Assembly: GCF_009687865.1 (NCBI RefSeq)
Contig: NZ_BLAE01000013.1
Location: 62,001-126,000 of the forward strand
Direction: 5' to 3'
DNA length: 64,000 bases
Source of the DNA: Acrocarpospora macrocephala
GTDB lineage: Bacteria > Actinomycetota > Actinomycetes > Streptosporangiales > Streptosporangiaceae
A program made the position numbers and the translations under genes. Below are positions 14,642-30,651 of this stretch, in pieces; the stretch's first letter is position 1; every line of letters begins with the position of its first letter. A model generated the notes under the pieces. It had not been told where the DNA came from and searched no databases. It saw nothing but the letters and a program-made list of their open reading frames with translations.

Positions 14642-14651
14642 CCCGCACGTT

Positions 14652-15680: not shown

Positions 15681-16593
15681 GCCCATCTCGGCCATCACTC
15701 CTCCAGCGGCCGGCGCGACGACCGCGCCGCCCGGTCCGGCCGCCGAGACCCGGCCCCGCGGCGCCGGTTTCGACGTGCTCACCTTGATGTGCGGACTCTG
15801 GCTGCTCACGCTGGCGGTGGTGGCGCTGGTGGCGCCGCTGCTGCCGCTCGGTGAGCATCAGGACTCCGCGCTGACGCTGGCCGAGCCGATCTACGCGCCC
15901 CCCGATCTCGCCTCGGCGCATCCGCTGGGCACCAACGCGCTCGGCCTGGACCTCCTCGCCCGGGTGATCTACGGGGCGCGGATCTCCCTGGTGGTGTGCA
16001 TCAGCGCCGTACTGATCGGCATGGCCGTCGGCGGGATAGTGGGAATCACCGCGGGCTACCTGCGCGGCAAGGTGGATGTGGTGATCGGCGTGCTCACGAA
16101 CTCGCTGCTGGCCGTGCCGACCCTCATCATGCTGATCGCCCTGGCCAGCGTGCTGCGGCCGACGCCGCAGAACATGGTGATCGCCCTGTCGCTGGTGGCC
16201 GTTCCGGGCATGATCCGGGTGGCCCGCGCGCAGACGCTGGCGCTGTCCCAGCGGGAGTACGTGACGGTGGCGCGGGCGCTGGGAGCCCGGCGGAGCCGGG
16301 TCATCCTGCGGGAGCTCCTGCCCAACGTGGCCCTGGCCATCATTCCGCTCGGGATGATCTACATCTCGGCGCTCATCGTGGCGGAGGCGTCGCTGAGCTT
16401 CCTCGGCATCGGCATCCGGCCGCCCCAGCCCACCTGGGGGAACATGATCGCCGAAGGCCAGGACGGCAAGATGGAGCAGTATCCCTTCCTGGTGATCGTG
16501 CCCGCCTTCTTCCTCTTCCTCACCGTCTTCTCGTTCAACCTCATCGGTGAACGGCTGCGCAAGGTGTGGGACACCCGGCAGGTGAAACTGTGA
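15667..16593 (+). CDS. Peptide/nickel-type ABC transporter permease (DppC-like)
   Basis: 308 residues starting at the GTG at 15667, which has GAGG 7 nt upstream and overlaps the preceding permease by 14 nt. A Pro/Ala-rich cytoplasmic leader of about 40 residues precedes the first helix. The DppC signature is clear: HPLGTNALGLDLLARVIYGA near the start of the core and the EAA loop EYVTVARALGARRSRVILRE, then ASLSFLGIGIRPPQPTWGNM. It pairs with the DppB-like protein to form the membrane pore and is stopped by a GTGA overlap with the ATPase gene. Confidence 0.9.
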   Translation: MPRTEPISAITPPAAGATTAPPGPAAETRPRGAGFDVLTLMCGLWLLTLAVVALVAPLLPLGEHQDSALTLAEPIYAPPDLASAHPLGTNALGLDLLARVIYGARISLVVCISAVLIGMAVGGIVGITAGYLRGKVDVVIGVLTNSLLAVPTLIMLIALASVLRPTPQNMVIALSLVAVPGMIRVARAQTLALSQREYVTVARALGARRSRVILRELLPNVALAIIPLGMIYISALIVAEASLSFLGIGIRPPQPTWGNMIAEGQDGKMEQYPFLVIVPAFFLFLTVFSFNLIGERLRKVWDTRQVKL

Positions 16594-17597
16594 TCAAACC
16601 ATTGCTGCACGTCCGCGACCTGCGGACGGTGTTCCAGACCGCGCGCGGCGCCGTCCCCGCCGTCGCCGGCGTCTCCTTCGATCTGCAGGCCGGTGAAACG
16701 CTCGGCATCGTGGGCGAGTCGGGTTCCGGCAAGTCCGTGCTCGGCCGGACGATCATGGGGCTGGTGGCCCCGTCACGCACCACGGCCGTGCACGGCACCG
16801 TCGAGTACGACGGCACGGATCTACTGCAAGCCTCGCCAAAGCGGCGGCGCGCCCTGCTCGGCGCGGAGATCGCCATGGTCTTCCAGGATCCGCTCAGCTC
16901 GCTCAATCCGGTCAAGCGCATCGGGATCCACCTCACCGAAACCCTCCGCCAGCACCGCGAACTCAGCCGGAGCGAGGCACGCAAGCGCGCCGTCGAGCTC
17001 CTCGACATGGTCCGCATCCCCGAGGCGGCCCGGCGGTTCGACCAGTACCCGCACGAACTCTCCGGCGGTATGCGGCAGCGCGTGATGATCGCCATGGCGC
17101 TGTCCTGCGACCCGAAGCTGCTCATCGCCGACGAGCCGACGACCGCGCTGGACGTGACCGTGCAGCGGCAGGTGCTCGACCTGCTCGCCGTGCTGTGCCA
17201 GGAACGCAAGATGGCCACCATTCTCATCAGCCACGACCTGGGGATCGTGTCGGGCCGCAGCGACCGGGTGGCCGTCATGTATGCGGGCAGGATCGTGGAG
17301 AGCGCCGCCGCGGAGGATTTCTTCCGCCACCAGCACCACCCGTATCCACGCGGCCTGCTCGCCTCCACTCCCCAGCTGGACAGCCCCGCGCGTACGGTTC
17401 TCACCACCGTGCCGGGGCGGCCCCCGGACCTGGCCCGCTGGCGCGGAGGATGCCATTTCTCGCCACGGTGCCCGAATGTCCAGGAGCGGTGCCGCCAATT
17501 CGAGCCACCCGTCGAGCAGACCACGGACGGGCGCACGCTCGCCTGCTTCCACCCCGTCGCCCCCAAGGGAGGAGAGGTCAATGGCCGGAACAGGTAA
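16590..17597 (+). CDS. ABC transporter ATPase (DppD/OppD-like)
   Basis: 335 residues starting at the GTG at 16590, overlapping the permease stop as GTGA. Walker A is GESGSGKS, the Q-loop follows in MVFQDPLSSLNPV, the ABC signature is LSGGMRQRV, and Walker B is LLIADEPTTALD with the H-loop ISHDLG. The C-terminus has the oligopeptide-family extension with four Cys (CHFSPRCPNVQERC and the later ACFHP) that commonly carries an iron-sulphur or metal site. It energises the importer with the next ATPase. Confidence 0.9.
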   Translation: MIKPLLHVRDLRTVFQTARGAVPAVAGVSFDLQAGETLGIVGESGSGKSVLGRTIMGLVAPSRTTAVHGTVEYDGTDLLQASPKRRRALLGAEIAMVFQDPLSSLNPVKRIGIHLTETLRQHRELSRSEARKRAVELLDMVRIPEAARRFDQYPHELSGGMRQRVMIAMALSCDPKLLIADEPTTALDVTVQRQVLDLLAVLCQERKMATILISHDLGIVSGRSDRVAVMYAGRIVESAAAEDFFRHQHHPYPRGLLASTPQLDSPARTVLTTVPGRPPDLARWRGGCHFSPRCPNVQERCRQFEPPVEQTTDGRTLACFHPVAPKGGEVNGRNR

Positions 17598-18570
17598 GGC
17601 GCACCTGCGCGACGGCGGCGCCCGGCTGACCGTCAAGGACCTGGTGGTGGAGTTCCGTACCAAGGGCGACCAGCGGGTGCAGGCGGTCTCCGGCGTCAGC
17701 TTCGACGTGCTGCCCGGCGAGACGCTGAGCATCGTCGGCGAGTCCGGCTGCGGAAAGTCCTCGGTGGCCAGGGCGGTGATGCACCTCCCGGCGCCCACCG
17801 ACGGCGCGGTCCAGCTCAACGCCCTCGATCTCGGCTCGCTCGACAAGAAGGCGCTGCGCCGCAGCCGGGTCGCCATGCAGATCGTCTTCCAGGACCCGGT
17901 GGCGTCCCTGAACCCGCGGCGCAAGGTCAAGGACCTGGTTCAGGAGGGCGCCTCGATCTGGGGGCGGGGCACGGCGAAATCGCGCGATCGCGACGCCCGC
18001 GAGGTGCTCGACGCGGTGGGCCTGGATCCGGACGTGGTGTGGAACCGCCGCCCGCACGAGCTGTCCGGCGGGCAGTGCCAGCGGGTGTCCATCGCGCGTG
18101 CCCTGGTCATGGAGCCGGACCTGCTCATCTGCGACGAGATCCTGTCCAGCCTGGATGTGTCCATCCAGGCGCAGATGCTCAACCTGCTCCGGGAGACGAA
18201 GGCGCAGCGGCAGCTCAGCATGCTGTTCATCGCGCACGATCTGGCGGTGGTGAAGAACATCAGCGACCGGATCCTCGTGATGTATCTCGGCAAGGTCTGC
18301 GAGGTGCTGGACGTGGAGGCGCTGGATCGGCCCGCCACCCACCATCCGTACACGCAGTTGCTGCTCGAATCGGTGCCGACGGTCGGCTCCAGCCGGGTGG
18401 TGCCGTCGAAGGCTCCGGCGGGGCAGGATCTGCCGTCACCGCTGAACCCGCCGTCGGGGTGCCGGTTCCGTACCAGATGCCCGCTGGCCACCCCGCGCTG
18501 CGCCGTCGAGGAGCCGCGGCTGGAGCGCAAGAGCGACGATCAGTTCATCGCCTGCCACGAAGTGGCCTAG
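17581..18570 (+). CDS. ABC transporter ATPase (DppF/OppF-like)
   Basis: 329 residues from the ATG at 17581, with GGGAGGAGAGG upstream and a 17-nt overlap with the previous ATPase. Walker A is GESGCGKS, the signature LSGGQCQRV, Walker B LLICDEILSSLD, so the usual DEPTS is replaced by DEILS while the catalytic Glu is kept. The C-terminal CRFRTRCPLATPRC extension is present. The stop codon lies within CTAG at 18567-18570, which is also the stop of the convergent iclR gene, so the two coding regions overlap by 4 nt. With the DppD-like partner it completes the ATP-hydrolysing part of the importer. Confidence 0.9.
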   Translation: MAGTGKAHLRDGGARLTVKDLVVEFRTKGDQRVQAVSGVSFDVLPGETLSIVGESGCGKSSVARAVMHLPAPTDGAVQLNALDLGSLDKKALRRSRVAMQIVFQDPVASLNPRRKVKDLVQEGASIWGRGTAKSRDRDAREVLDAVGLDPDVVWNRRPHELSGGQCQRVSIARALVMEPDLLICDEILSSLDVSIQAQMLNLLRETKAQRQLSMLFIAHDLAVVKNISDRILVMYLGKVCEVLDVEALDRPATHHPYTQLLLESVPTVGSSRVVPSKAPAGQDLPSPLNPPSGCRFRTRCPLATPRCAVEEPRLERKSDDQFIACHEVA

Positions 18571-19355
18571 CCGACGGTCCGGTGCTCGGTCGGCAGGGGG
18601 ACCAGGGACGCTTCGACGGCGCGGGCGGTCCTGGCGAGCTCGAACGCGATATCGGGGATCAGCGCGTCCGGGCAGCGCAGCAGCGGGATGCCCGTCGCCA
18701 CGGCCGCGATGGGCTGGTCGTCGGCGTCCAGCACGCAGACGCCGATCCCGATCAGGCCGCGCTCGCTCTCCTCGTCGTTGACGGAGTAGCCGTTACGGCG
18801 GATCACCGCCAGCTGCCGTTTGAGCGTGCCCATATCGCAGGGCCCCGGTCCGTACGTCAACGGAAGGCCCCGCGGATACAGCGCCGCCAGCTCGGTCGGC
18901 CGGAGGCGGGCGAGAATGGCCTTACCGGCGGCGGTGCAGTGCGCCAGCATGGACATTCCCGCACGTGAGGTCACATGGACCTGGTGCCGCCTGACGGATT
19001 CCACCCCGTCCAGGAACATGGCCGCCGTGCCCTGGAGCCGTACCAGATGGACGGTCTCGCCGAGCCGCCGGCTCAGCTCCACCAGATGATCGTGGGCGAG
19101 GGCCGCCAGCTCGTTCCCCGGCGGAGCGGCCACCGCGCCCCGCAGCGCCCACCCCCGCTGGTACGTCCGTCGCGCGTTCTGCTCGGCGAAACCATGATGA
19201 ACAAGCATCACCATCAACCGGTGCGCCGTGGAGGGCGCCACGCCCAGGGCGCGGGCCGCGTCGGTGACCCTGATCTCCCCGGAGTCCCGCAGGAGATGGA
19301 TCAGCCGAAGTGCATTCCCGACGGACTCGATGGGATACGCGACAGTAGGCTCCAT
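18567..19355 (-). CDS. IclR-family transcriptional regulator 1
   Basis: 262 residues. The N-terminal winged helix-turn-helix is clear (RVTDAARALGVAPSTAHRLM), followed by the IclR effector domain with GMSMLAHCTAAGKAILA and NDEESERGLIGIGVCVLD, where the small aromatic or organic acid effector is bound. It is divergent from the alcohol dehydrogenase operon and separated from it by two copies of the TTCTG-N5-(C/T)AGAA palindrome, so it probably regulates that operon and, through site 1, the ABC operon. The sequence CATACT sits 7 nt before the ATG at 19355 with no Shine-Dalgarno, suggesting a leaderless transcript. Confidence 0.9.
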   Translation of the reverse strand: MEPTVAYPIESVGNALRLIHLLRDSGEIRVTDAARALGVAPSTAHRLMVMLVHHGFAEQNARRTYQRGWALRGAVAAPPGNELAALAHDHLVELSRRLGETVHLVRLQGTAAMFLDGVESVRRHQVHVTSRAGMSMLAHCTAAGKAILARLRPTELAALYPRGLPLTYGPGPCDMGTLKRQLAVIRRNGYSVNDEESERGLIGIGVCVLDADDQPIAAVATGIPLLRCPDALIPDIAFELARTARAVEASLVPLPTEHRTVG

Positions 19356-19407
19356 GTCCGGAGTATGACAATCGCGTTAATTGGCGCGACAGAGCGCATC
19401 TCAAGAT

Positions 19408-19422
19408 TTCTGCCTGTTAGAA
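19408..19422. promoter_or_regulatory. Putative IclR operator, site 2
   Basis: TTCTG-cctgt-TAGAA, with one more matching base on each side (TTTCTG/TAGAAA). It lies about 53 nt upstream of the iclR1 start codon in the divergent region and has one mismatch to the consensus TTCTG-N5-CAGAA. Confidence 0.55.
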
Positions 19423-19520
19423 AGAGCCTGCCGCCCGTTTCCACATCCCCGCTGCCATCAGGCCGGATAGGGCGGACCGCAGGGCCGGAGACGGAGCGTC
19501 CCCGCCTCCTCAGCGGCGGA

Positions 19521-19541
19521 AGATTCTGTCCGCCAGAATCT
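19521..19541. promoter_or_regulatory. Putative IclR operator, site 3
   Basis: AGATTCTG-tccgc-CAGAATCT is a perfect 8+8 palindrome with a 5-nt spacer, about 170 nt upstream of the alcohol dehydrogenase start. Its core TTCTG-N5-CAGAA is identical in sequence and spacing to sites 1 and 4. A second nested pair, GGCGGA/TCCGCC (19515-19534), overlaps it. The remainder of the 355-nt gap between iclR1 and the dehydrogenase shows no gene. Confidence 0.6.
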
Positions 19542-19710
19542 CTCGGGCCCTTTCCTGGCGCCGATGAGCCGAACCATATGCTCGGGACGAGTCAAGGCTG
19601 ACGTGCATGGACAGGGCAGCGGCAGCGAGCCCCCGCCCCCCGCCGCGACGCTCAGCACCGGATCGTCCCGCGTTCGACCGCGACGATGCCGACCAGAAAA
19701 GGGAAATCAC

Positions 19711-20955
19711 ATGACCGACGACCCCACCGAATTCCGAGGCTGGGTGCGACACGGCAACGTCCTGGAAATCCTCCCGATGCGACTGCGGCCCCGACGGCCC
19801 ACCGATGTGGTGGTACGGAACCTCGCGGCCCAAGCATGTTACACAATCGTGTCCAACGTCCTGGATTCGGCCGACCAGATCCCGGGCCACGCCGGTCGCG
19901 CCCGCAGCCCGGGCCACGGCGCGATGGGGGTCGTCGTCGAGGTCGGCCCGCAGGTGCGCCGCGTCAAGGTCGGCGACAAGGTGGTCACCCCGGTCCTGCC
20001 CGCCTGCGGCACGTGCTACAGCTGCGTCCGCGGCGAGTGGCACGCCTGCGGCCACAAGAACGACCTCGATTTCGCCACCCCGGACGCGCCGCCGTTCGCC
20101 GAGCTGGAGGACGGCACCCCGGTCTGGCAGGACCACACCGGCGGCTTCGCCGAGCTGGCCGTCTGCCCGGAGCCGTGGGTGGTTCCGGTCAACGAGTCGA
20201 CCCTGTCCAACGTCGAGCTCGCGACGCTCGCGTGCGTGCCAGGACCCGGCTGGACGTTCGGGCTCATCGGCGCCCGGATCGAGATCGCGTCCACGGTGGC
20301 CGTGCTCGGCGCGGGACCGCTCGGCCTGTCGATCATCCAGGCCGCGAAGATGGCCGGCGCGCGCCTGATCATCGCGGCGGAGCGCATCCCGCACCGCCTC
20401 GACGCGGCGAAGAAGGCCGGCGCGCACGTGGTGCTCAACACCGACGAGATCGGGGACACCCTGGTCGAGCGCATCCACGAGCTGTGCCGCCCCGAGACGG
20501 AGAACATGGCGGCGGGCGGCAAGCCCATCGTCGGCTTCTACGGCGGCACCGGAGCCGACCACGTCTTCGAGGCGGCGGGCGCCACCTTCGGCAACCCCAC
20601 CACCGGCATGCCCGCCGACGACACCGGGGCCCTCCTGGTGAGCCAGGGCGTGCAGGCGACGCGCCGCGGCGGGTTCTTCGTGCACACCGGGGTCACCAAG
20701 AAGACCAACGATCCGAAGCTGTGGACGCCGGCCCCCGGCCCGTTCGACTACAACGGCAAGCGCTACCTGTCCGCCGCCTACGGCGGAGGCAACGTGCTGC
20801 GGGACATCCCGCGCCTGGCCAAGCTCATCGAGATGGGCTACCTCGACGCGATGTCGCTCGTGGACCCCGTGCTGCCCTTCGAAAAAGGCGACGAGGCGAT
20901 CTGGTCCTCGCTCAACAGGGACAAGCTGCTCCCGATCATCACCTTCCAGGACTAG
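19711..20955 (+). CDS. Zinc-dependent alcohol dehydrogenase (MDR family)
   Basis: 414 residues from the ATG at 19711, with AAGGGA 5-10 nt upstream. The structural-zinc lobe is visible (CGTCYSCVRGEWHAC), the GHGAMGVVVEVGP loop is the catalytic-zinc region, and the nucleotide fold motif is VLGAGPLGLSIIQAAK. Length and the SQGVQATRRGG segment are closer to the glutathione-independent formaldehyde dehydrogenase subgroup than to simple ethanol dehydrogenases. It oxidises an alcohol with NAD; a partner role with the aldehyde dehydrogenase of the upstream operon is plausible. It is the first gene of the second catabolic operon (alcohol dehydrogenase, solute-binding protein, decarboxylase, SDR, FAD protein). 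Confidence 0.85.
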   Translation: MTDDPTEFRGWVRHGNVLEILPMRLRPRRPTDVVVRNLAAQACYTIVSNVLDSADQIPGHAGRARSPGHGAMGVVVEVGPQVRRVKVGDKVVTPVLPACGTCYSCVRGEWHACGHKNDLDFATPDAPPFAELEDGTPVWQDHTGGFAELAVCPEPWVVPVNESTLSNVELATLACVPGPGWTFGLIGARIEIASTVAVLGAGPLGLSIIQAAKMAGARLIIAAERIPHRLDAAKKAGAHVVLNTDEIGDTLVERIHELCRPETENMAAGGKPIVGFYGGTGADHVFEAAGATFGNPTTGMPADDTGALLVSQGVQATRRGGFFVHTGVTKKTNDPKLWTPAPGPFDYNGKRYLSAAYGGGNVLRDIPRLAKLIEMGYLDAMSLVDPVLPFEKGDEAIWSSLNRDKLLPIITFQD

Positions 20956-20979
20956 GGATTCCCACGAAGGGAAAGCCAG

Positions 20980-22602
20980 ATGACAACCACCACTCGCCGG
21001 GCCATCCTCGCTCTCGCCACCACCTCGCTCCTCCTGGCCGGATGTTCCGGAGGTGGTGGGGGAAAGACCGCGTCGGCACCGAGCCAGGGCGCCACCGCCC
21101 CCGGGATCGCGCGCGGCTTCGTGCAGAACGACGCCCCCGCCGGTGAGCCCGTGCAGGGCGGCACGCTCACCTACGCCCTGGGCGTGGAAGTCGACAACCT
21201 CGACCCGGCCACCGAGTTCGGCGCCGGCAGCGCGGGCGGGTCGGAACTCGCCGCGCTCTACGATTCGCTGGTCCGCTACGACGCCACCTCGGGCAAGTAC
21301 TTGCCCCAGCTCGCGGAGAAGCTGGAAGCCAACGACGACAACACCGAGTGGACCGTGACCCTCCGCGACGGCGTCAAGTTCACCGACGGTACGCCCCTGG
21401 ACGCGGCGGCCGTGAAGTTCAGCGTCGAACGCTACATCGCGGCCAAAGGCGGCTGGGCGGGCTTTATGGACGACGCGCTCGACTCGGTCACAGCCGACGG
21501 GATGACCGCCGTCTTCAAGCTCTCCCGGCCGTGGGCGGACTTCCCGTTCATGCTGGCGCAGGCGCCGGGCAACATCGTGTCACCGGCCGGGGTGAAGAAG
21601 TTCGGTGAGGAATTCGTCCGCAACCCGGTCGGAGCCGGGCCGTTCAAGCTGGAGCGCTGGTCGCCCGGCGAGGAGCTGGTCCTGAGCGCGAACCCGGACT
21701 ACTGGAACGGCAAGCCGTACCTGGACACGCTCCGGTTCGTGCCGGTGGCCACGCCGCAGGCGCTCGGGGACCTGATGAACACCCAGGGGGCCGACGCGGC
21801 GTTCCTGACCAGCCCGCAGGTGATCCGTACGGTCCTGGACGGGAAGTTCGGCGGCTACGTCGACCTGATGAACACCGGCTCCATCCTGCTCATCAACAAC
21901 GGCATCGGCGACAAGCCCCGCCCCGGCGAGGACGTCCGGGTACGGCAGGCGATCGCGCACGCCATCGACGCCAAGGTCATCGACCAGCGCGTCAACAGCG
22001 GCCAGGGCCTGCCCGGCACCGAGATCTTCCAGTCCAGCTCCCGCTGGGCCAACTCGGTCGGCGGACCCGCGTTCGACCAGGCCAAGGCCAAGGACCTCCT
22101 CGCGCAGGCGAAGGCGGCCGGCTTCGACGGCAAGCTCGTCATGGTCACCCCGCCGACCCAGCCCGAGCTGGGCCTGACCATCCAGGCGATGCTCAACGCG
22201 GTCGGCTTCCAGGTCGAATCCGCCCCCGTGCAGACCGTGCAGGACCTGATCCGGCGCGTCCTCGTCGAGGGCGACTTCGACATCGCGGTCTACGGCTGGT
22301 CGGTGCCCGACGAGCCCGGCGAGGTCTTCGCCCGGTACTTCGACCGGGTGGGCCGCGAGGGCAACCCGATCGGCTACGACGGCGCCAAGCTCCGCGAGCT
22401 CCTGCTCGGCTTCGCCGCCACCGGCGACGAGGCGGAGAAGAAGTCCATCGTCACCCAGCTGCAGCAGGTCTGGAACGAGACGATGCCCGGCGTGCCGCTG
22501 GCCCAGACGGCGCAGATGGTCGCCTGGCAGGAGAACGTGCACGGCATCAAACCCTCCTCGCAGCTGATCCTGCAATTCGACAAGGCCTGGATCGCCAAGT
22601 AA
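20980..22602 (+). CDS. ABC transporter solute-binding lipoprotein (SBP_bac_5 family)
   Basis: 540 residues. Lipoprotein signal with Arg pair and lipobox LLLAGC, mature N-terminus GGGGG-rich. The family hallmarks are GGTLTYALGVEVDNLDP at the start of the binding fold, WTVTLRDGVKFTDGTPLDA, and NPVGAGPFKLERWSPG. It captures ligand outside the membrane for the DppBCDF-like importer encoded about 2-6 kb upstream on the other side of iclR1, so the importer is split over two operons. AAGGGAAAG lies before the ATG at 20980. Its stop TAA overlaps the next ATG (TAATG), implying translational coupling to the decarboxylase homologue. Confidence 0.9.
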   Translation: MTTTTRRAILALATTSLLLAGCSGGGGGKTASAPSQGATAPGIARGFVQNDAPAGEPVQGGTLTYALGVEVDNLDPATEFGAGSAGGSELAALYDSLVRYDATSGKYLPQLAEKLEANDDNTEWTVTLRDGVKFTDGTPLDAAAVKFSVERYIAAKGGWAGFMDDALDSVTADGMTAVFKLSRPWADFPFMLAQAPGNIVSPAGVKKFGEEFVRNPVGAGPFKLERWSPGEELVLSANPDYWNGKPYLDTLRFVPVATPQALGDLMNTQGADAAFLTSPQVIRTVLDGKFGGYVDLMNTGSILLINNGIGDKPRPGEDVRVRQAIAHAIDAKVIDQRVNSGQGLPGTEIFQSSSRWANSVGGPAFDQAKAKDLLAQAKAAGFDGKLVMVTPPTQPELGLTIQAMLNAVGFQVESAPVQTVQDLIRRVLVEGDFDIAVYGWSVPDEPGEVFARYFDRVGREGNPIGYDGAKLRELLLGFAATGDEAEKKSIVTQLQQVWNETMPGVPLAQTAQMVAWQENVHGIKPSSQLILQFDKAWIAK

Positions 22603-23591
22603 TGACGCAACTCAGCCTCACCTTCGCCTGCCTCGACTACGACCGGACGCGCGCGCTCCAGGACGGCCGGGTCAAGCCGGAGGGCATCGACCTGAACTTC
22701 CTCGCGCTGCCGGTGGAGGAGACGTTCTTCCGGCAGCTGAGGTACCAGGAATTCGACATCGCCGAGATGAGCCTGTCCTCTTACGTCCTCACGCTCGATC
22801 AGGAAGATCCGCCGTTCCTGGCGATTCCGGTCTTCCCGTCGCGCTACTTCCGCCACCAGTCCATCTTCGTCAACGCCCGCAGCGGGATCGAGCAGCCGGC
22901 CGACCTCGCCGGGCGGCGGATCGGAGTGCCGGAATACCAGATCACGGCCGGTGTCTGGCAGCGTGGCATGCTGGCGGACGAGTACGGGGTCGACCCCTTC
23001 TCCCCGCAGTACTTCAGCGGCGGGGTCGAGACGCCCGGGCGGGAGGAGAAGATCACGCTCGATCTGCCGGACGGGCTCAAGGTCCAGCCGATCGGGCCCG
23101 GCCAGACGCTGTCGGCGATGCTGGCCAGCGGGGAGATCGACGCCCTGATGAGCGCTCATGTGCCGTCGTGCTTCGGCCGGGACCCCGACGTCCGGCGGCT
23201 CTTCGCGGATCCGAAGGCCGCGGAGAAGGCGTACTTCGCGAAGACGGGCATCTTCCCGATCATGCACACCGTGGTGATCAAACGCGCGATCCTGGCCCGG
23301 CATCCGTGGGCCGCCCGGTCGCTGACCAAGGCGTTTCAGGCCTCCTTGCGGATCGCCAAGGAGGACCTGGCGTACCGCAGCGCGCTGAAGGTCATGCTGC
23401 CCTGGCTGGATGACCACGTCGCCGAGACGATCTCCGCGCTCGGCGAGGACTACTGGTCGTACGGGGTCGAACCGAACCGCCACGTCCTGGAGGTATTCCT
23501 GCGCTACTCCCACGCCCAGGGGCTGGCCAAACGGTTGCGTACACCCGATGAGCTGTTCGCCGGTTCCGCCGACACGGGCTACGCGATATGA
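22602..23591 (+). CDS. 4,5-dihydroxyphthalate decarboxylase homologue
   Basis: 329 residues. Segments such as DYDRTRALQDGRVKPEGIDL, FRQLRYQEFDIAEMSLSSYV, RIGVPEYQITAGVWQRGML and WSYGVEPNRHVLEVF match the 4,5-dihydroxyphthalate decarboxylase (Pht5/PhtD) family as I know it. That fold is also close to periplasmic binding proteins, and the gene follows a solute-binding protein by a one-base TAATG overlap, so an additional binding role is possible; there is no signal peptide, which favours a cytoplasmic enzyme. In the phthalate pathway the enzyme yields protocatechuate, but no protocatechuate genes are here, whereas a gentisate pathway is. A related hydroxylated phthalate decarboxylated to 3-hydroxybenzoate would link the two, but this is inference. 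Confidence 0.75.
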   Translation: MTQLSLTFACLDYDRTRALQDGRVKPEGIDLNFLALPVEETFFRQLRYQEFDIAEMSLSSYVLTLDQEDPPFLAIPVFPSRYFRHQSIFVNARSGIEQPADLAGRRIGVPEYQITAGVWQRGMLADEYGVDPFSPQYFSGGVETPGREEKITLDLPDGLKVQPIGPGQTLSAMLASGEIDALMSAHVPSCFGRDPDVRRLFADPKAAEKAYFAKTGIFPIMHTVVIKRAILARHPWAARSLTKAFQASLRIAKEDLAYRSALKVMLPWLDDHVAETISALGEDYWSYGVEPNRHVLEVFLRYSHAQGLAKRLRTPDELFAGSADTGYAI

Positions 23592-24322
23592 GCGGCCGGG
23601 TGGCGGTCGTCACGGGCGCCGGTCAGGGCATCGGTGCCGCCGTGGCGCGTGACCTGGTCGAACAGGGATACCGGGTGGCCGTAGTCGACCTCAACGGCGG
23701 CGAAAAGGTCGCCGACTCCCTGGGCGAACGCGGACTGGCGGTCGAGGCCGACGTCGCGGACGAGGACTCCATGGCCGCGGCCCGAACGCGGATCCTGGAC
23801 GCGTTCGGGCGCGTCGATGTCCTCATCAACAACGCCGCGATCTTCTCCACCCTGGAGATGAAGTCCTTCGAGGACATCTCCGTGCCGGAATGGGACAGGG
23901 TGATGGCCGTGAACGTGCGCGGCGTGTTCGTCTGCTGCCGCACGTTCTCGCCGGATCTGCGCGCCGCCGAGCACGGCAGGATCATCAACCTGTCCTCCGG
24001 CGCCGTGCTCCTGGGCCGTCCCGGCTACCTGCACTACGTCGCCTCCAAGGCGGCCGTCATCGGGCTCACCCGCTCGCTGGCGCGCGAGCTGGGCGGCAGC
24101 GGCGTGACGGTGAACGCGATCGCGCCGGGCTCGACCGAGACCGAGGTGCCGCGGGCGACGGTCACGCCGGCCGACGTGGCGGCGATCATCGCGGGCCAGG
24201 CCATCAAACGTCGCCAGACCAGCGCCGACCTGCTGGGGGCGATGGCCTTCCTGGCCGGTACGGCAAGCGGCTTCGTCACCGGCCAGACGCTCGTGGTCGA
24301 CGGCGGCATGACGTTCAACTGA
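23588..24322 (+). CDS. Short-chain dehydrogenase/reductase
   Basis: 244 residues, starting at an ATGA overlap with the decarboxylase homologue. The Rossmann motif is TGAGQGIG, the NNAA motif follows at about residue 80, the catalytic Ser is in NLSSGAV, and the YVASK motif supplies Tyr and Lys. The C-terminus ends VVDGGMTFN, typical of the classical SDR family. In an aromatic degradation operon such an enzyme could oxidise a dihydrodiol to a catechol or a side-chain alcohol; the sequence does not decide. The cofactor loop ends in VVDLNGG, with an Asp that favours NAD over NADP. Confidence 0.9.
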   Translation: MSGRVAVVTGAGQGIGAAVARDLVEQGYRVAVVDLNGGEKVADSLGERGLAVEADVADEDSMAAARTRILDAFGRVDVLINNAAIFSTLEMKSFEDISVPEWDRVMAVNVRGVFVCCRTFSPDLRAAEHGRIINLSSGAVLLGRPGYLHYVASKAAVIGLTRSLARELGGSGVTVNAIAPGSTETEVPRATVTPADVAAIIAGQAIKRRQTSADLLGAMAFLAGTASGFVTGQTLVVDGGMTFN

Positions 24323-24358
24323 TAACGATCGTTTAGAGATCGAGCAAGGAGTTTCCTC

Positions 24359-25969
24359 ATGACGTCGGCGAGTGCGTACGACGGGATCATCATCGGAGCG
24401 GGCCAGCACGGCCTCATCCTGGGCAGCTACCTGGCCAAGGCCGGCCTCCGCGTGCTCCTGGTGGAGCGGCGTCTCGGCTACGGCGGCGGGCTCTCGACCG
24501 AGGAGCGCACGCTCCCCGGCTTCTACCACAACCTTCACTCGATCAACCACTTCAGCATCAGCAGTACGCCCTGGTTCAAGGACCTGGACCTGGCGGCGAA
24601 GATGCGTTACATCGTGCCGCGCTACGAGTTCGCGCAACCCCATGCCGACGGTTCCGCGCTCGTCTTCTCCCGCGACCTGGACGAGACCGCCGCCAACATC
24701 GCCCGCTTCTCCGCCAGCGACGCCAAGACCTTCCGCGAATGGAACATCAAGGCGGAGGAGATGACGAAGAAGATCTTCTTGAAGGAGCGGTTCGCGCCGC
24801 CCCTCAGCGAAGCCGACCGGGCCGAGGTGCTGGGCAGATCGGCGCTCGGCAGCGAGTTCCTGGAGCTGACCAAGAAGCAGCCGCTGGACGCGGTCAACGA
24901 GCTGTTCGAGAACGAGTACGTCAAGGTGCTCTTCCTGTTCAAGCTCTCCCTCTTCGGCACGGTCCTGCACGAGGCGCTGAACACCGGCAGCCCGGTCGGC
25001 TCGCTGATCCGCGCCTTCGACCTGGCGACCGGCTACGAGCTGGCCCAGGGCGGGAGCTGGAACCTGGCCCGCTCGCTCATGGAGACCTTCATCGCCAGCG
25101 GCGGGGAGTTCAGGAACCAGACGCAGGTCGAGCGGATCGTGGTGGAGGGCAACCGGGCCACCGGGGTGGAGCTCGCCGACGGCACCGTGATCAAGGCGCG
25201 GCAGTTCGTGGCCAGCACGATCGACGTCTACCAGACGTTCGAGAAGATGGTCGGGCGCGAGCAGCTGCCCGCCGAGACCCGGGAGAAGGTCGCCAACCAC
25301 AAGTACACCCCGTGGACGCTGTTCGGCCTGCATCTCGCGCTCGCCGACGCGCCGCGTTACCGGGCGGGGGCGTTCGATCCCCACGTGGACACGGCGTTGA
25401 AGTACAACATCGGCTCGGAGACGATCGCGAGCCTGCTTGAGGCGCACGACCAGGTGGAGCAGAAGAAGGTGCCGTCCAACGCGCAGTTCGGGGCGGGTGC
25501 TTTGTCCGTGCTGGATCCGCTGCAGGCGCCTCCGGGTAAGCACACGGCCTATGCGTGGCAGGTTGTGCCATACGACATCGACTCAGACCCGGACGCGATC
25601 GACGGCGTGCGGGACCAGTTGCAGGAATCGATTCTCGAGAAATGGCGTGAGTATGCGCCGAACATGACGCCGGACAACGTGCTGGGCTCCTACACCTACA
25701 CGGCGAAGGAGTACACGCAGGAGATCACCAACATGCGGTACGGCGACATTTTCATGGGTGCGCTGACCTCCGATCAGGTTATGTACAACCATTTCGGATA
25801 CCGGACGGCGATCGACGGGCTCTACATGGCGGGCTCGCCCTGCCACCCGAATGGCGCGATCACCGGCGGCGCCGGATATATCGGGGCGGGCGTGATCGCC
25901 TCCGACCTCGGGATCACCCCGTGGTGGACGCCGATGGACGCCCGGTCGGAGCTGGAAGGCCTCGAATAG
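24359..25969 (+). CDS. Phytoene-desaturase-like FAD-dependent oxidoreductase
   Basis: 536 residues, ATG at 24359 after AAGGAG. The N-terminal GAGQHGLILGSYLAKAG is a variant of the GxGxxG dinucleotide motif, with His in the fifth place, followed by VVE-like VLLVERRLGYGGG. The C-terminus carries the second FAD motif GLYMAGSPCHPNGAITGGAG, typical of CrtI/amine-oxidase-like NAD(P)/FAD proteins. These desaturate or dehydrogenate hydrophobic substrates. It follows the SDR by 36 nt and is the last gene of operon two, converging on iclR2 with 3 nt between stops. Its exact substrate cannot be read from the sequence; it is the second flavoprotein desaturase of the island. Confidence 0.85.
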   Translation: MTSASAYDGIIIGAGQHGLILGSYLAKAGLRVLLVERRLGYGGGLSTEERTLPGFYHNLHSINHFSISSTPWFKDLDLAAKMRYIVPRYEFAQPHADGSALVFSRDLDETAANIARFSASDAKTFREWNIKAEEMTKKIFLKERFAPPLSEADRAEVLGRSALGSEFLELTKKQPLDAVNELFENEYVKVLFLFKLSLFGTVLHEALNTGSPVGSLIRAFDLATGYELAQGGSWNLARSLMETFIASGGEFRNQTQVERIVVEGNRATGVELADGTVIKARQFVASTIDVYQTFEKMVGREQLPAETREKVANHKYTPWTLFGLHLALADAPRYRAGAFDPHVDTALKYNIGSETIASLLEAHDQVEQKKVPSNAQFGAGALSVLDPLQAPPGKHTAYAWQVVPYDIDSDPDAIDGVRDQLQESILEKWREYAPNMTPDNVLGSYTYTAKEYTQEITNMRYGDIFMGALTSDQVMYNHFGYRTAIDGLYMAGSPCHPNGAITGGAGYIGAGVIASDLGITPWWTPMDARSELEGLE

Positions 25970-25972
25970 AGC

Positions 25973-26770
25973 TCAGTGGGAGTCGGGCTGCTCAAGCCCG
26001 GCATCCCGCAGCGCCCTCGTCATGTCCTGCTGGGCCTCGAACAGGTGGGCCAGCGAATCGGGGGTCAGCAACCGGTCGAATCGTGAGATCGGGGTGGCCA
26101 GCGAGAACGCGGCGAGGGGGCGGCCGGCGGAGTCGAGGACGGGCAGGCCGATCGCGCCGAGCCCGCTCTCGGACTCCTCGCGGTTGGTGGCGTAACCCCG
26201 CGCCCGCACCGTGGCGAGTTCATTGAGGAGTTCGGAGAATTCGGCCGGGGAAAGCCGGTGCTCGGCGGTCCCATTGCCCAGATAAAGCCGCGCCAGGTAA
26301 TCGGGACTCTGGAAACTCAGCAGCGCTTTCCCGCCGGAGGTGGATCGCGCGGCGAGGACGGACCCGGCCCGATCCCCGACCCGCAAGATGGCCGTGGCTT
26401 CGACCGAGTACAGGAACCGGACGTGCGCTCCCACCCGGACCATGAGGTTCGACGTCTCGTCGAAGCGCGCGCACAGCGCCTCAAGCGCGGGTTGCAACAC
26501 CTGGCGCACCTCGCGGTGCCAGGTCGAACTCACCGCTCCCACCCCGAGCACCGGACTGGGGGCGTAACGCTTGGAGTCCTCCTGGATGGCGAACCCCCGA
26601 TACACGAGCATCGCCATCAACCGGTGCGCGGTCGACACGGCGACACCCAGATCGGTGGCGATATCCGTCAGCCGGACGCTGCCCTGATCGCGAAGGATCT
26701 GCAGGATGCGCAGCGCGTTGTCCACCGAGGCAATCGGGTACGGCGGCCGCTGGATGTAGTTCTTCTGCAC
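25973..26770 (-). CDS. IclR-family transcriptional regulator 2
   Basis: 265 residues if the GTG at 26770 is used. An upstream in-frame GTG at 26821 adds 17 residues, but the sequence then matches regulator 1 less well: from 26770 the two proteins align from their starts (YPIASVDNALRILQILRDQG against YPIESVGNALRLIHLLRDSG). The winged HTH is RLTDIATDLGVAVSTAHRLM and the effector domain contains RSTSGGKALLSF and NREESESGLGAIGLPVLD. An operator-like palindrome overlaps the start codon, consistent with autoregulation, and no Shine-Dalgarno is seen, so the message may be leaderless. It is divergent from the gentisate operon and probably controls it in response to an aromatic acid. Confidence 0.85.
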   Translation of the reverse strand: MQKNYIQRPPYPIASVDNALRILQILRDQGSVRLTDIATDLGVAVSTAHRLMAMLVYRGFAIQEDSKRYAPSPVLGVGAVSSTWHREVRQVLQPALEALCARFDETSNLMVRVGAHVRFLYSVEATAILRVGDRAGSVLAARSTSGGKALLSFQSPDYLARLYLGNGTAEHRLSPAEFSELLNELATVRARGYATNREESESGLGAIGLPVLDSAGRPLAAFSLATPISRFDRLLTPDSLAHLFEAQQDMTRALRDAGLEQPDSH

Positions 26771-26780
26771 CCCAGAAGAA
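26760..26780. promoter_or_regulatory. Putative IclR operator, site 4
   Basis: TTCTTCTG-caccc-CAGAAGAA is a perfect 8+8 palindrome with a 5-nt spacer. Its core (26763-26777) is identical to sites 1 and 3. It overlaps the preferred start of iclR2 and lies 118 nt upstream of the hydroxylase start. Weaker half-matches, TTCTG-tgagc-CAGCG at 26825 and TTCTG-ttgtg-AAGAA at 26891, follow in the same gap. Confidence 0.6.
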
Positions 26781-26897
26781 TAACGCGCTTCAAGTGCGGC
26801 GAAAGCCCGGCCAAGGAACACTGATTCTGTGAGCCAGCGGAGACGCCTAGGTGGAGACCGCTACCGGCGCAATGGATATCAAACGAGGGATTCTGTT

Positions 26898-28067
26898 GTG
26901 AAGAAAAATAGGCGACCGGTCATCGTCGTCGGAGGGGGAATCGGTGGTCTCACGGCCGCGCTCGCGCTGAGATTAGGCGGGGTCGAGGTCACGTTGCTGG
27001 AGCGCGCCGACGAATTCGGCGAGGTCGGCGCCGGGCTTCAGCTGGCCCCCAACGCCACCAGGATTCTGGCCCAGTGGGGGCTGCTCGATAAGACGCTCCG
27101 GCTGGGTTACGAACCTCGCAGCATCGTGTTGAAGGACGCCGTCGACGGCTCGGAGCTGACCCGTCAGGACCTCGGCGAGGAGTTCCGGGCCCGTTATGGC
27201 GCGCCGTACATCGTGATTCACCGCAGTGACCTGCACACCATTCTGCTGGACGCCGCCCGGGCGGCCGGGGTGGAGCTCATCACCGGAGCCGAGGTCGAGT
27301 CCGTCACCGACGGACTCGACGGGGCGAGCGTCTCGGTGGCGAACGGCACCACGTGGCTGGCCGACGCGTGTATCGCGGCGGACGGCCTGACCTCCCGGGT
27401 GCGCGACGCGATCGTCGGCGATCAGCCTGTCTCGTCCGGATACGTCGCCTATCGCGGCACCCTGCCCCGCGGCGACGACACGTTCGAGGACGTCGTGGCC
27501 TGGCTGGGTCCTGGCTGCCATTTCGTACGCTATTCGCTGCGCAACGGCGAAATGCTGAACCACGTCGCGGTCTTCCGCTCGCCCCGCTTCGCGGCCGGGC
27601 ACGAGGAGTGGGGCGGCGTGGACGAACTCGACACCGCCTTCGCCGAATGCTGCGCCGAGGTCCAGGAGGGCGTCGCCCACCTGTGGCGGGACCGGCGCTG
27701 GCCGATGTACGACCGCACGCCCACACCGCAGTGGCGCCGCGGTTCGACCCTGCTCGTGGGCGACGCCGCCCACCCGATGCTCCAATATCTGGCCCAGGGC
27801 GCCTGCCAGGCCATCGAGGACGCCGCGACGATCGGCCGCGCCCTCGACCACCACGACGGAATCCCGGCCGCGAACGACTGGCCGTCGATCTTCGACCAGG
27901 TCGTCGGCGAACGCGAACCCCAGGCCACCCTGGTCCAGAACTCGGCCCGCGTCTGGGGCGACATCTGGCACACCGACGGACTGGGCCGGCTCCTGCGCAA
28001 CGAGCTGATGCGACGCAGGGACACCAAAGATTTCCGCTACAGCGACTGGCTGTACGGCGCTCGCTGA
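26898..28067 (+). CDS. 3-hydroxybenzoate 6-monooxygenase (group A flavoprotein)
   Basis: 389 residues from the GTG at 26898, with GAGGGA 7 nt upstream; longer in-frame readings from 26829 lack a site. The FAD-binding motif is VVGGGIGGLTAALAL, followed by ERADEFGEVGAGLQLAPN, and the second FAD motif is GDAAHPMLQYLAQGACQAIED. The pattern RARYGAPYIVIHRSDLH, SSGYVAYRGT and MLNHVAVF with the tail DFRYSDWLYG resembles rhodococcal 3-hydroxybenzoate 6-hydroxylase. It uses NADH and oxygen to make gentisate. Salicylate hydroxylase is the main alternative, but the gentisate dioxygenase immediately downstream favours the 6-hydroxylase. Confidence 0.85.
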   Translation: MKKNRRPVIVVGGGIGGLTAALALRLGGVEVTLLERADEFGEVGAGLQLAPNATRILAQWGLLDKTLRLGYEPRSIVLKDAVDGSELTRQDLGEEFRARYGAPYIVIHRSDLHTILLDAARAAGVELITGAEVESVTDGLDGASVSVANGTTWLADACIAADGLTSRVRDAIVGDQPVSSGYVAYRGTLPRGDDTFEDVVAWLGPGCHFVRYSLRNGEMLNHVAVFRSPRFAAGHEEWGGVDELDTAFAECCAEVQEGVAHLWRDRRWPMYDRTPTPQWRRGSTLLVGDAAHPMLQYLAQGACQAIEDAATIGRALDHHDGIPAANDWPSIFDQVVGEREPQATLVQNSARVWGDIWHTDGLGRLLRNELMRRRDTKDFRYSDWLYGAR

Positions 28068-28085
28068 CCAATGGGAAGGATTGAT

Positions 28086-29156
28086 ATGACCGCAGAACCG
28101 GACGAAGCGGCGCTGAAGCAGCTTTACGCCGACTTCGAGGCGAACGATCTCACGCCCCTGTGGACTCAGCTGAACGACCTCATGCCCCTGGTGCCGGCGC
28201 CGTCGGCGAAGGCGCACGTGTGGCGGTGGTCGACCCTGCATCGCCTGGCCGAACGTGCCGGTGACCTGGTGCCGGTCGGGCGAGGCGGGGAGCGCCGTGC
28301 CATCGCGCTGGTGAATCCGGGCCTGCCGGGCACCGCGTACATCGCGCCGACGTTGTGGTGCGCCATCCAGTATCTGGGGCCGCGCGAGACCGCGCCGGAG
28401 CACCGCCACAGCCAGAACGCGTTCCGGTTCGTCGTCGAAGGCGAGGGGGTGTGGACGGTCGTCAACGGGGATCCGGTCGCGATGCGCCGGGGTGACTTCC
28501 TGCTGACGCCGGGGTGGCATTTCCACGGCCATCACAACGACACCGACCAGCCGATGGCGTGGATCGACGGACTGGACATTCCGTTCTCGCGCTACACCGA
28601 TGTGGGGTTCTTCGAGTTCGGTTCCGAGCGTGTCACCGATGAGGCGTCGCCCGCGGTGTCGCGCAGCGAGCGGCTGTGGGCGCATCCCGGGCTGCGCCCG
28701 ATGTCGGAGCTGGATCCCCGGATATCGTCGCCGCTTGCCGCGTACCGCTGGGAGCACACCGACGCGGCGCTCACCGAGCAGCTCGCCCTTGAGGACGAGG
28801 GGCATCCGGCGACGGTCGAGCAGGGGCACGCCGCGATCCGGTACGTGAATCCGACGACGGGCGGGGATGTCATGCCGACGATTCGCGCGGAGTTCCACCG
28901 GCTGCGAGCGGGAACCCGGACGCGTACGCGCCACGAGGTCGGCTCGTCGGTCTGGCAGGTTTTCGAAGGCAGCGGGTCGGTCGTCCTCGGCGGCGAAGAG
29001 CGGTCGGTGTCAACAGGCGACCTTTTTGTCGTTCCTTCCTGGGTTTCGTGGTCGCTTCAGGCCGAGACGCCGCTTGACCTGTTCCGTTTCAACGACGGGC
29101 CGATCATCGACCGGCTCGGTTTTTCTCGTACGTTCATCCCGGAGGACGGCTCGTGA
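28086..29156 (+). CDS. Gentisate 1,2-dioxygenase
   Basis: 356 residues, a bicupin protein. The first cupin carries the iron ligands His106 and His108 in PEHRHSQNAFRFVVEGEG and a third His in GWHFHGHH near 147; the second cupin (about residues 265-345) has FEGSGSVVLGGEERS but fewer ligands. It cleaves gentisate between C1 and C2 to maleylpyruvate using Fe(II) and oxygen. The ATG at 28086 has GGAAGGA 5 nt upstream; an in-frame GTG/ATG at 28071 lacks one. It follows the hydroxylase by 18 nt and overlaps the hydrolase by 4 nt, so the gentisate genes form one operon. Confidence 0.92.
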   Translation: MTAEPDEAALKQLYADFEANDLTPLWTQLNDLMPLVPAPSAKAHVWRWSTLHRLAERAGDLVPVGRGGERRAIALVNPGLPGTAYIAPTLWCAIQYLGPRETAPEHRHSQNAFRFVVEGEGVWTVVNGDPVAMRRGDFLLTPGWHFHGHHNDTDQPMAWIDGLDIPFSRYTDVGFFEFGSERVTDEASPAVSRSERLWAHPGLRPMSELDPRISSPLAAYRWEHTDAALTEQLALEDEGHPATVEQGHAAIRYVNPTTGGDVMPTIRAEFHRLRAGTRTRTRHEVGSSVWQVFEGSGSVVLGGEERSVSTGDLFVVPSWVSWSLQAETPLDLFRFNDGPIIDRLGFSRTFIPEDGS

Positions 29157-29944
29157 AGATCGGCACCATCCGAACCGGCACGGGAACCGCGCCCGTTGTC
29201 GTCGGCGAGCACGACGTTACGGTCATCGAATCGTTCGATGATGTCGGGACGCTGCTGGCGAGTGGACCGGGCTGGCGGGACCTCGCGGACAATGCGGGCG
29301 GCCCCACGATCCCCCTGGCGGAACTCGAACCGTCGCAGTGGGCGCCGGTAATTCCGCGACCAAGCAAGATCATCTGTGTTGGGTTGAATTACCGTAACCA
29401 CATCCTGGAGATGGGTCGTGAGTTGCCCGCGTATCCGACGCTCTTCACCAAATACCCGGAGACGCTGATCGGTCCCTTTGATCCCATCCGGTGGTCCTCG
29501 CACTCCACGCACCTGGACTGGGAGGCGGAACTGGCGGTCGTCATGGGCTGGGATGCCGAGATTGTGGGATATACGATCATGAACGACGTCACGCTGCGGG
29601 ATTTCCAGTACCACACGACCCAGTGGCTGCCAGGGAAGAACTTCGCCGGAACCACCCCGCTCGGGCCGTACCTGACGACGGCCTTCACCCACGGGCGGAT
29701 CAGCACGACCGTGAACGGCGAGCTCATGCAGGACTCGGTAACGTCTGACCTGGTCTTCTCCCCCGCCGAGCTGGTCACCTACATCTCCCGGTTCCTGCCC
29801 CTCGCGCCCGGCGACGTCATCGCCACCGGCACACCCGGCGGCGTCGGCCACGCCCGCAAACCTCCCGTCTACCTGCGGCCGGGCGACGTCGTCCAGACCG
29901 AGATCGACGGGCTCGGGTCCCTGCGCAACGTCGTCGGAAGCTGA
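29153..29944 (+). CDS. Fumarylpyruvate hydrolase (FAH family)
   Basis: 263 residues, starting at GTGA overlapping the dioxygenase stop. The FAH-fold signature is present: KIICVGLNYRNHILEMG, then the metal-binding DWEAELAVVMG acidic residues, and NDVTLRDFQ with the third acid, followed by SPAELVTYISRFLPLAPGDV and ATGTPGGVG. The enzyme splits fumarylpyruvate into fumarate and pyruvate, the last step of the gentisate pathway. Related FAH enzymes act on other acylpyruvates, but the operon decides in favour of fumarylpyruvate. Confidence 0.9.
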   Translation: MKIGTIRTGTGTAPVVVGEHDVTVIESFDDVGTLLASGPGWRDLADNAGGPTIPLAELEPSQWAPVIPRPSKIICVGLNYRNHILEMGRELPAYPTLFTKYPETLIGPFDPIRWSSHSTHLDWEAELAVVMGWDAEIVGYTIMNDVTLRDFQYHTTQWLPGKNFAGTTPLGPYLTTAFTHGRISTTVNGELMQDSVTSDLVFSPAELVTYISRFLPLAPGDVIATGTPGGVGHARKPPVYLRPGDVVQTEIDGLGSLRNVVGS

Positions 29945-29946
29945 CC

Positions 29947-30651
29947 GTGGGCGCGCGAGTCGACCGCACCTCGGATCCGGCGATCCTCGCGGATCTGCTC
30001 CTCGCGAGGAGAGGCACGGCCTACTTCCTCCGCAAGCTGAGAGAACTCCCCGACGGCGAGTTCGGCGGGGACTCGCTGCTCGCCGGATGGACACGCAGCC
30101 ACGTGATCGCCCATGTCGGCTACAACGCGCGCGCCCTGTCCCGGCTCGTCAACTGGGCGGCCACGGGCGTGGAAACCCCGATGTACGCCTCGCCCGCCGA
30201 CCGCGATCACGAGATCGAGTTCGGCGCGACGCTCAGCCCCAACGCCTTGCGCAACCTCGCCGAGCACTCCGCCGTACACCTGAACGTCGAATGGCGGGAT
30301 CTCGCGCCCTCGCGCTGGTCACAGCAGGTGCGTACCATCCGCGGACGGGCGGTCCCGGCGACGGAGACCGCCTGGATGCGCGCCCGGGAGGTGTGGCTGC
30401 ACGCGATCGACCTGGACAACGGGGGCAGATTCGAAGAGCTGCCGGAGGAGTTCCTGCGGCGCCTCCTCGACGATGTCACCTCCTCCTGGGCGGCTCGGGA
30501 CGTGCCGTCGTTCTCCCTGCGCACAGGCGCCGAGACCTACGACGTCCGCCCGGCCGACCACCCGATCCCGGTAACCGGCACCCTGCCCGCCTTGGCCGCG
30601 TGGGCCACCGGTCGCCGGCAACGGGATGTCACAGCGCCTCGGTGGCTCTAG
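29947..30651 (+). CDS. Mycothiol-dependent maleylpyruvate isomerase
   Basis: 234 residues from the GTG at 29947, 2 nt after the hydrolase stop, with GGAAG about 7 nt upstream. The N-terminal DinB-like metal-binding fold carries His52 in TRSHVIAHVGYNARAL, and Glu148 and His152 in REVWLHAIDLD, which match the zinc triad of the corynebacterial enzyme. It converts maleylpyruvate to fumarylpyruvate using mycothiol, so the host is a mycothiol-making actinobacterium. It completes the gentisate pathway. Its 3' end overlaps the next, opposite-strand gene by 23 nt. Confidence 0.9.
   Translation: MGARVDRTSDPAILADLLLARRGTAYFLRKLRELPDGEFGGDSLLAGWTRSHVIAHVGYNARALSRLVNWAATGVETPMYASPADRDHEIEFGATLSPNALRNLAEHSAVHLNVEWRDLAPSRWSQQVRTIRGRAVPATETAWMRAREVWLHAIDLDNGGRFEELPEEFLRRLLDDVTSSWAARDVPSFSLRTGAETYDVRPADHPIPVTGTLPALAAWATGRRQRDVTAPRWL

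Follow-up and report, generated by a model that had tools for sequence, protein, structure and literature searches.

An island of genes at approximately 10775–30651 of a 64-kb stretch of the Acrocarpospora macrocephala genome (contig NZ_BLAE01000013.1, positions 62,001 to 126,000; the whole stretch is called the window, and coordinates refer to it) combines a homologue of 4,5-dihydroxyphthalate decarboxylase (DHPD), a group of ring-oxidation genes and a 3-hydroxybenzoate/gentisate operon. We propose, with a probability of roughly 0.58, that the island acts as one IclR regulon, which imports an alicyclic or hydroaromatic compound and converts it through a hydroxyphthalate and 3-hydroxybenzoate to gentisate. 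The analysis establishes the enzyme families, the conservation of the gene set and a palindrome common to its operons. We regard ring oxidation, DHPD and the gentisate pathway as linked because of this conservation, the negative controls, a cluster in Streptomyces hirsutus and the common palindrome. A sequence-only reading of this DNA had already suggested a single pathway of ring oxidation and desaturation, decarboxylation and 3-hydroxybenzoate/gentisate degradation, and this idea is backed by eight genomes as well as by the controls, S. hirsutus and the palindrome.

Organisation of the island

The actinomycete genome to which the window belongs is 12.1 Mb in size. Gene calls, together with Pfam and NCBIfam profiles, divide the island into three same-strand gene groups, all on the plus strand. 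Their spacing suggests that they are operons; adjoining genes overlap or almost touch at 22602, 23588–23591 and 29153–29156. Operon 1 encodes an SRPBCC (polyketide cyclase-like) protein (10798–11508), a KstD/ChcC1-like flavin adenine dinucleotide (FAD)-dependent ring desaturase (11483–13108), an aldehyde dehydrogenase (13142–14641) and the two permeases and two ATPases of an Opp-type ABC importer (oppBCDF, 14682–18570). Operon 2 is divergent from the gene for IclR regulator 1 (18567–19355, minus strand) and encodes a zinc alcohol dehydrogenase (19711–20955, with the start chosen by conservation), an SBP_bac_5 lipoprotein (20980–22602), the DHPD-like protein (22602–23591), an SDR dehydrogenase (23588–24322) and a CrtO/CrtI-like FAD oxidoreductase (24359–25969), which is the second desaturase candidate. 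Operon 3 is divergent from the gene for IclR regulator 2 (25973–26821, minus strand) and encodes 3-hydroxybenzoate 6-hydroxylase (3HB6H, 26829–28067, although its true start is probably near 26898), gentisate 1,2-dioxygenase (GDO, 28071–29156), an FAH-family hydrolase in the role of fumarylpyruvate hydrolase (29153–29944) and a mycothiol-dependent maleylpyruvate isomerase (29947–30651).

The DHPD homologue, 3HB6H and the mycothiol-type gentisate genes named in the sequence-only reading are all present as open frames, and the profiles bear out its alcohol dehydrogenase, aldehyde dehydrogenase, SDR and two flavoproteins. Its span of 22602–30651 was too short, because the island reaches upstream to about 10775; the gentisate operon has a divergent IclR gene of its own.

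Conservation of the gene set and its palindrome

Searches with the DHPD-like protein covered 100 relatives, 345 genomes from the order and 394 from the class, and led to G211, from another genus, and G400, from another family, whose DHPD proteins are respectively 91% and 78% identical to that of the window. G400 has every island gene in the same order at 58–92% identity, with two extra predicted genes between those for IclR regulator 1 and OppF, while G211 has all of them at 70–95% identity, save those for the FAH hydrolase and the isomerase. A search of 342 genomes with the CrtO-like protein found 26 others at an E value of 1e-90 or better, seven at 57% identity or above and 19 at 40% or below. 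All seven of the closer group (G211, G037, G361, G354, G264, G136 and G142) carry genes for DHPD, SDR, the KstD-like protein and aldehyde dehydrogenase close by.

The window, G400 and the seven genomes picked by the CrtO-like protein make up the nine genomes counted here. DHPD, SDR, the CrtO-like protein, the KstD-like protein (at only 31–42% identity in G264) and aldehyde dehydrogenase occur in all nine, and the SDR gene adjoins that for DHPD or the CrtO-like protein in all eight relatives. Alcohol dehydrogenase is found in eight of the nine (at 67–95% identity in seven of the eight relatives), as is SRPBCC (seven of the eight relatives), and 3HB6H lies on the set's own contig in eight (six of the seven CrtO-selected genomes). 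The Opp importer is present in seven genomes; in its place, G361 and G354 carry an MFS-like gene, that of G354 being of the metabolite/H+ symporter kind. GDO is on the same contig in five of the nine; in G037, a GDO-like stretch of 111 residues is also found close to the KstD gene. The genes are arranged very differently in G361/G354, in G136/G142, in G037 and in the window, and therefore the linkage is more than the inheritance of one block.

As controls, 20 kb was examined in 10 of the 19 genomes with CrtO relatives at 37–40% identity. DHPD, KstD and 3HB6H homologues were found within 20 kb of the CrtO relative in none of the ten, and one (G263) has aldehyde dehydrogenase and SDR homologues at 33–37% identity. 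CrtO-like relatives on plasmids (15 listed of 184 records) were 27–29% identical, which was uninformative. We also surveyed 80 named DHPD loci among the matches listed. In one of these, from Streptomyces hirsutus, the DHPD gene directly follows those for 3HB6H and GDO, and homologues of FAH and SDR lie alongside.

The palindrome TTCTG-N5-CAGAA occurs at three exact sites in the window, all at operon heads, where shuffled sequences lead one to expect 0.01. The operon 1 site (10775–10789) has exact copies beside the SRPBCC gene in G211 and G400; the operon 2 site (19524–19538) is kept in both genomes; and the operon 3 site (26763–26777), which overlaps the start of the IclR regulator 2 frame, is exact in G211 and has one mismatch in G400. 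When one mismatch is allowed, the window contains two further copies, at 19408 (operon 2) and 26891 (operon 3). The whole 12.1-Mb genome holds six exact palindromes, three of them in this island, compared to two for a reversed control pattern. G211 has three exact palindromes in the same places as the window, and G400 has two exact and three one-mismatch copies, while the CrtO control loci (199 kb) contain no exact copy and one with a single mismatch, and the DHPD control loci (152 kb) no exact copy. Chance juxtaposition of the genes is rejected by the eight-genome conservation, the CrtO controls and the palindrome. The set is common to soil actinobacteria and is probably co-regulated.

Elsewhere in the genome, the exact palindrome lies between amidohydrolase-like and SDR-like genes (G000:C16:138747), upstream of a malic-enzyme-like gene (G000:C122:11221; all these names were read from the sequence) and inside a predicted gene (C25:29523). 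The C16 and C122 copies are possibly regulon members, or chance. The two IclR regulators (regulator 1, PF01614/PF09339; regulator 2, PF01614 at 8.3e-28) are 41% identical, and it is therefore plausible that both bind one type of site, which would be the palindrome.

The DHPD-like protein and its partner enzymes

The DHPD-like protein is a cytosolic protein of 329 residues, and its top solved relative is a 4,5-dihydroxyphthalate decarboxylase (9jp7, 3.5e-90). An AlphaFold model built from 46 sequences has a predicted local distance difference test (pLDDT) score of 92.2, and Foldseek matches it first to 9jp7, which is from Comamonas testosteroni KF-1 (template modelling (TM) score 0.96, 46% identity), followed by binding proteins, MqnD, Thi5 and DszB at TM scores of about 0.5. 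The protein is also 59% identical to the pCAR3 phthalate-cluster enzyme, which is itself flanked by Rieske, nadC and Gfo/Idh genes. The assignment as a phthalate-type decarboxylase homologue thus holds over the full length and the fold.

Its sole Pfam match at E 0.001 is Phosphonate-bd (2.4e-8), and many of its plasmid relatives among the matches listed carry the annotation of ABC substrate-binding protein. No signal peptide is seen in the sequence or the model, both of which open directly with the first strand. The possibility that the gene encodes the transporter's binding protein is rejected because the protein has no visible signal peptide and its model resembles 9jp7 in fold, and because there is a separate SBP_bac_5 lipoprotein (PF00496, 2.1e-69), which is the probable binding protein of the Opp-type importer. 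The genome has 24 matches to the NMT1 family (PF09084), and the DHPD-like gene is not among them.

Residues were compared in a 120-sequence alignment containing 27 phthalate-cluster and 10 pathway-linked enzymes. Across these 37, 65 positions are invariant, with at most one exception, and 16 positions, including Arg186, deviate in at least seven of the ten pathway-linked enzymes. Residue 186 is arginine in all 27 phthalate-cluster enzymes and histidine or serine in nine of the ten pathway-linked ones, and the change hints at an altered but related substrate. A passage in a review (PMC13040137), citing Nakazawa and Hayashi (1978), reports that DHPD of C. testosteroni NH1000 has unspecific activity on 4-hydroxyphthalate too; loss of the carboxyl para to the hydroxyl of this compound would yield 3-hydroxybenzoate. 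A quick tree, in which many forks are open and branches are long, scatters the pathway-linked enzymes; a single origin remains compatible with it.

The sequence-only reading had also stated that no phthalate or protocatechuate dioxygenase gene accompanies the DHPD homologue, and a homology search of the window agrees. No homologue of any of three Rieske oxygenases or two pht4-type dehydrogenases from phthalate clusters was found in the window at E 0.001, so that the pht3 (Rieske) and pht4 neighbours expected of a DHPD phthalate cluster are missing there. The intradiol dioxygenase family PF00775 has three matches in the genome, on other contigs (two adjacent and pcaGH-like on C68, one on C8). 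A classical phthalate cluster is rejected on these grounds. Among the 80 listed DHPD loci, Rieske and Gfo/Idh homologues both occur nearby in 29, of which 27 are at 45% identity or more.

Other DHPD contexts are varied. The same genome has a distant paralogue of about 35% identity (G000:C5:51959-56947, L168), roughly 3 kb from the genome's best Rieske match, an oxygenase with 39% identity to that of the pCAR3 phthalate cluster. Four homologues of 64–66% identity lie outside the pathway (L029, L126, L128 and L129), with varying PadR-like, SLC13-like, TPP-enzyme-like and aldehyde dehydrogenase neighbours, the first three labels being read from the sequences; no phthalate dioxygenase homologue was matched at these four loci, which do not reveal the pathway substrate. 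In a Microbacterium sp. metagenome-assembled genome (L037:8634-10990), a syringate/vanillate O-demethylase-like gene (DesA/LigM models, under cut-off) directly precedes the DHPD homologue, which suggests one more substrate for the family. On a Microbacterium sediminis plasmid (L137:9297-12505), a DHPD homologue annotated as an ABC binding protein lies between two class II aldolase genes and beside hcaB, a setting that resembles a 3,4-type phthalate operon.

The gentisate enzymes are assigned to well-supported families. The top PDB relative of the 3HB6H protein is the sequence of 4bjy, 4bjz and 5hym, Rhodococcus jostii 3HB6H (9.1e-130). GDO matches 3nst, presumably the Pseudaminobacter salicylate/gentisate enzyme, at 595 bits (4.4e-178), and keeps the HRH sequence that we take to be the metal motif of gentisate dioxygenases. 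The isomerase is above the cut-off of both its models (PF11716, 88.9 bits against 24.2, 6.3e-25; TIGR03083, 105.1 bits against 50), and the hydrolase matches PF01557 at 6.1e-59. In the alignment, the window 3HB6H retains His213 and Tyr217, residues described for the Rhodococcus enzyme in PMC5472690. The genome's sole 3HB6H match at E 1e-40 is the one in this cluster. A complete mycothiol-type gentisate pathway with 3HB6H had been claimed from the sequence, and all four enzymes do lie within one predicted operon.

The top model for the flavoprotein of operon 1 is NF053676, for ChcC1 (4-oxocyclohexanecarboxylate 2-dehydrogenase), at 483.6 bits, followed by 3-oxosteroid 1-dehydrogenase at 445.3; ChcC1 is likewise the top model for its homologues in G354 and G037. 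We take the catalytic residues of R. erythropolis KstD1 to be Tyr119, Tyr318, Tyr487 and Gly491, and all four are kept in an alignment with 4c3x, assuming a 20-residue tag on that chain. The flavoprotein of operon 2 scores 183.7 bits against the beta-carotene ketolase CrtO model (NF045689, 5.5e-54), far under the cut-off of 1000, and is therefore filed as CrtO/CrtI-like only. The idea of two desaturases is strengthened in that the best model for the first protein is that of the ring-aromatising ChcC1, ahead of the steroid dehydrogenases, although its score is under the model cut-off. The aldehyde dehydrogenase (PF00171, 6.6e-157), SDR (PF13561, 7.2e-59) and alcohol dehydrogenase (PF08240/PF00107) are clear family members, the importer is identified by profile matches, and the SRPBCC protein (Polyketide_cyc2 at 1.9e-4, under cut-off) is a possible aromatase/cyclase helper. 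PDB matches of the SDR, the alcohol dehydrogenase and the binding protein were too remote to name a substrate.

Outside the island, a frame directly upstream (6348–10721) encodes a P-type cation ATPase of 1457 residues whose N-terminal part is long, and the window also encodes a NACHT-domain protein (655–3873, minus strand) and a CHAT-domain protein (44366–47194, minus strand). Such domains are frequent in signalling or defence proteins.

The proposed pathway and its alternatives

The three operons would form one catabolic regulon controlled by the IclR proteins through their predicted binding to the palindrome. The Opp-type importer may take in a six-membered ring compound with one-carbon branches on neighbouring carbons and an oxygen on the ring. 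The alcohol and aldehyde dehydrogenases would oxidise a branch from primary alcohol to carboxylic acid, and the SDR would turn the ring alcohol into a ketone. The KstD/ChcC1-like and CrtO-like flavoproteins, perhaps assisted by the SRPBCC protein, may then desaturate the ring, yielding a hydroxyphthalate (in the simplest case 4-hydroxyphthalate), from which the DHPD-like enzyme would strip one carboxyl to give 3-hydroxybenzoate. 3HB6H would convert this to gentisate, which GDO, the mycothiol-dependent isomerase and the FAH hydrolase would degrade to fumarate and pyruvate. The substrate, the intermediates, the enzyme activities, the order of the steps and regulator binding are all predictions from the gene content. 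A more specific version, in which the precursor is a natural hydroaromatic or alicyclic vicinal dicarboxylate, two unrelated flavoproteins aromatise it and a DHPD of altered specificity makes 3-hydroxybenzoate, is tentative, and we give it a little less than an even chance.

Several observations weigh against the single pathway. We know of no abundant natural substrate of the proposed shape. 3HB6H and GDO have NF006021 and TIGR02272 as their top NCBIfam models and miss the cut-offs (344.8 bits against 459, and 268.8 against 442, respectively), and the KstD-like protein misses the ChcC1 equivalog cut-off of 1000 bits. The palindrome occurs only with one mismatch in G037, G136 and G142 (6, 4 and 4 copies, some intragenic), and was not found even with one mismatch in the G361, G354 and G264 stretches. 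Within 10 kb of the S. hirsutus DHPD there is neither a KstD-like nor a CrtO-like match. As to residue 186, the pathway-linked enzyme of G037 retains the arginine, while just one of 11 other actinobacterial DHPD relatives outside the pathway has it. The linkage itself is also incomplete: GDO is far from the set in G264, G354, G361 and G142, though elsewhere in those genomes; the gentisate operon of G037, including 3HB6H, is about 30 kb distant; and G264 has the upstream set with neither alcohol dehydrogenase nor SRPBCC seen in the stretch and no 3HB6H in the genome at E 1e-40, so most of the upstream set can evidently occur without 3HB6H. These last three cases, and the separate IclR regulator of the gentisate operon, fit two unrelated neighbours, a ring-oxidation island and an ordinary 3-hydroxybenzoate/gentisate operon. 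We consider this distinctly unlikely, given that eight of nine genomes have 3HB6H on the contig of the set, in several rearranged orders, that there is a separate pairing in S. hirsutus, and that one palindrome stands at all three operon heads.

The substrate could instead be aromatic already, for example a hydroxymethyl or formyl hydroxybenzoate or a phthalide, which the alcohol and aldehyde dehydrogenases would make into a hydroxyphthalate, with the flavoproteins serving side-chain or related substrates. The near-universal presence of these dehydrogenases in the nine genomes is consistent with this, as are the O-demethylase-like gene beside DHPD in L037 and the CoA-transferase-like and flavin monooxygenase-like genes (read from N-termini) beside DHPD in L034. 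We think it unlikely, in view of the two ring-desaturase-type flavoproteins in all nine genomes, seven of which were however selected by the CrtO-like one, and of the ChcC1 affinity of the KstD-like protein in all three genomes tested. It is also distinctly unlikely that the DHPD-like protein is a sensor or another enzyme of the periplasmic binding protein (PBP) fold, with 3-hydroxybenzoate coming from another source: its fold is indeed common to binding proteins, MqnD and DszB, and Arg186 is lost, but the solved DHPD is close in both sequence and structure, and the 65 near-invariant positions run through pathway and phthalate-context enzymes alike.

The proposed single pathway resembles three known systems in part. 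The window protein shares fold and length with the DHPD of the phthalate 4,5-dioxygenase pathway (whose gene names we take to be Pht5/OphC); unlike that pathway, the window has no detected phthalate dioxygenase or dihydrodiol dehydrogenase gene, Arg186 is replaced, and the link is to gentisate, not protocatechuate. Aromatisation of cyclohexanecarboxylate proceeds through ChcB, ChcC1 and ChcC2, and then PobA (names partly from NCBIfam models), and shares with the window an SDR, a KstD-type flavoprotein and a ring made aromatic before cleavage. According to PMC5906575, that route exits via 4-hydroxybenzoate and protocatechuate. The window differs in having a CrtO-like rather than ChcC2-like second flavoprotein, an added decarboxylase and a 3-hydroxybenzoate/gentisate exit. 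The actinobacterial 3-hydroxybenzoate/gentisate pathway comprises 3HB6H, GDO, the mycothiol isomerase and fumarylpyruvate hydrolase, all of which are in the window operon, which, unlike the ordinary pathway, shares an operator-like palindrome with a ring-oxidation module and DHPD. No description of this gene set was found in the portions of the open PMC literature consulted (subscription journals being outside the scope); gentisate, dihydroxyphthalate decarboxylase and 3-hydroxybenzoate all appear in PMC10005059, where no link of this kind is described in the sections seen. The parts are known in kind; a combination of them in which DHPD leads to gentisate and is joined, under a single operator-like site, to a module for ring desaturation was not met in those portions.

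If correct, the proposal would add an aerobic route by which a saturated ring is first aromatised and decarboxylated and only then cleaved, and would supply new enzymatic tools for dehydrogenative aromatisation. Because the set is compact and has a common operator-like site, its substrate can be sought directly. It would also help to account for DHPD homologues without phthalate dioxygenases, caution against labelling these as phthalate genes or ABC binding proteins, and give the DHPD family a role beyond the conversion of phthalate to protocatechuate.

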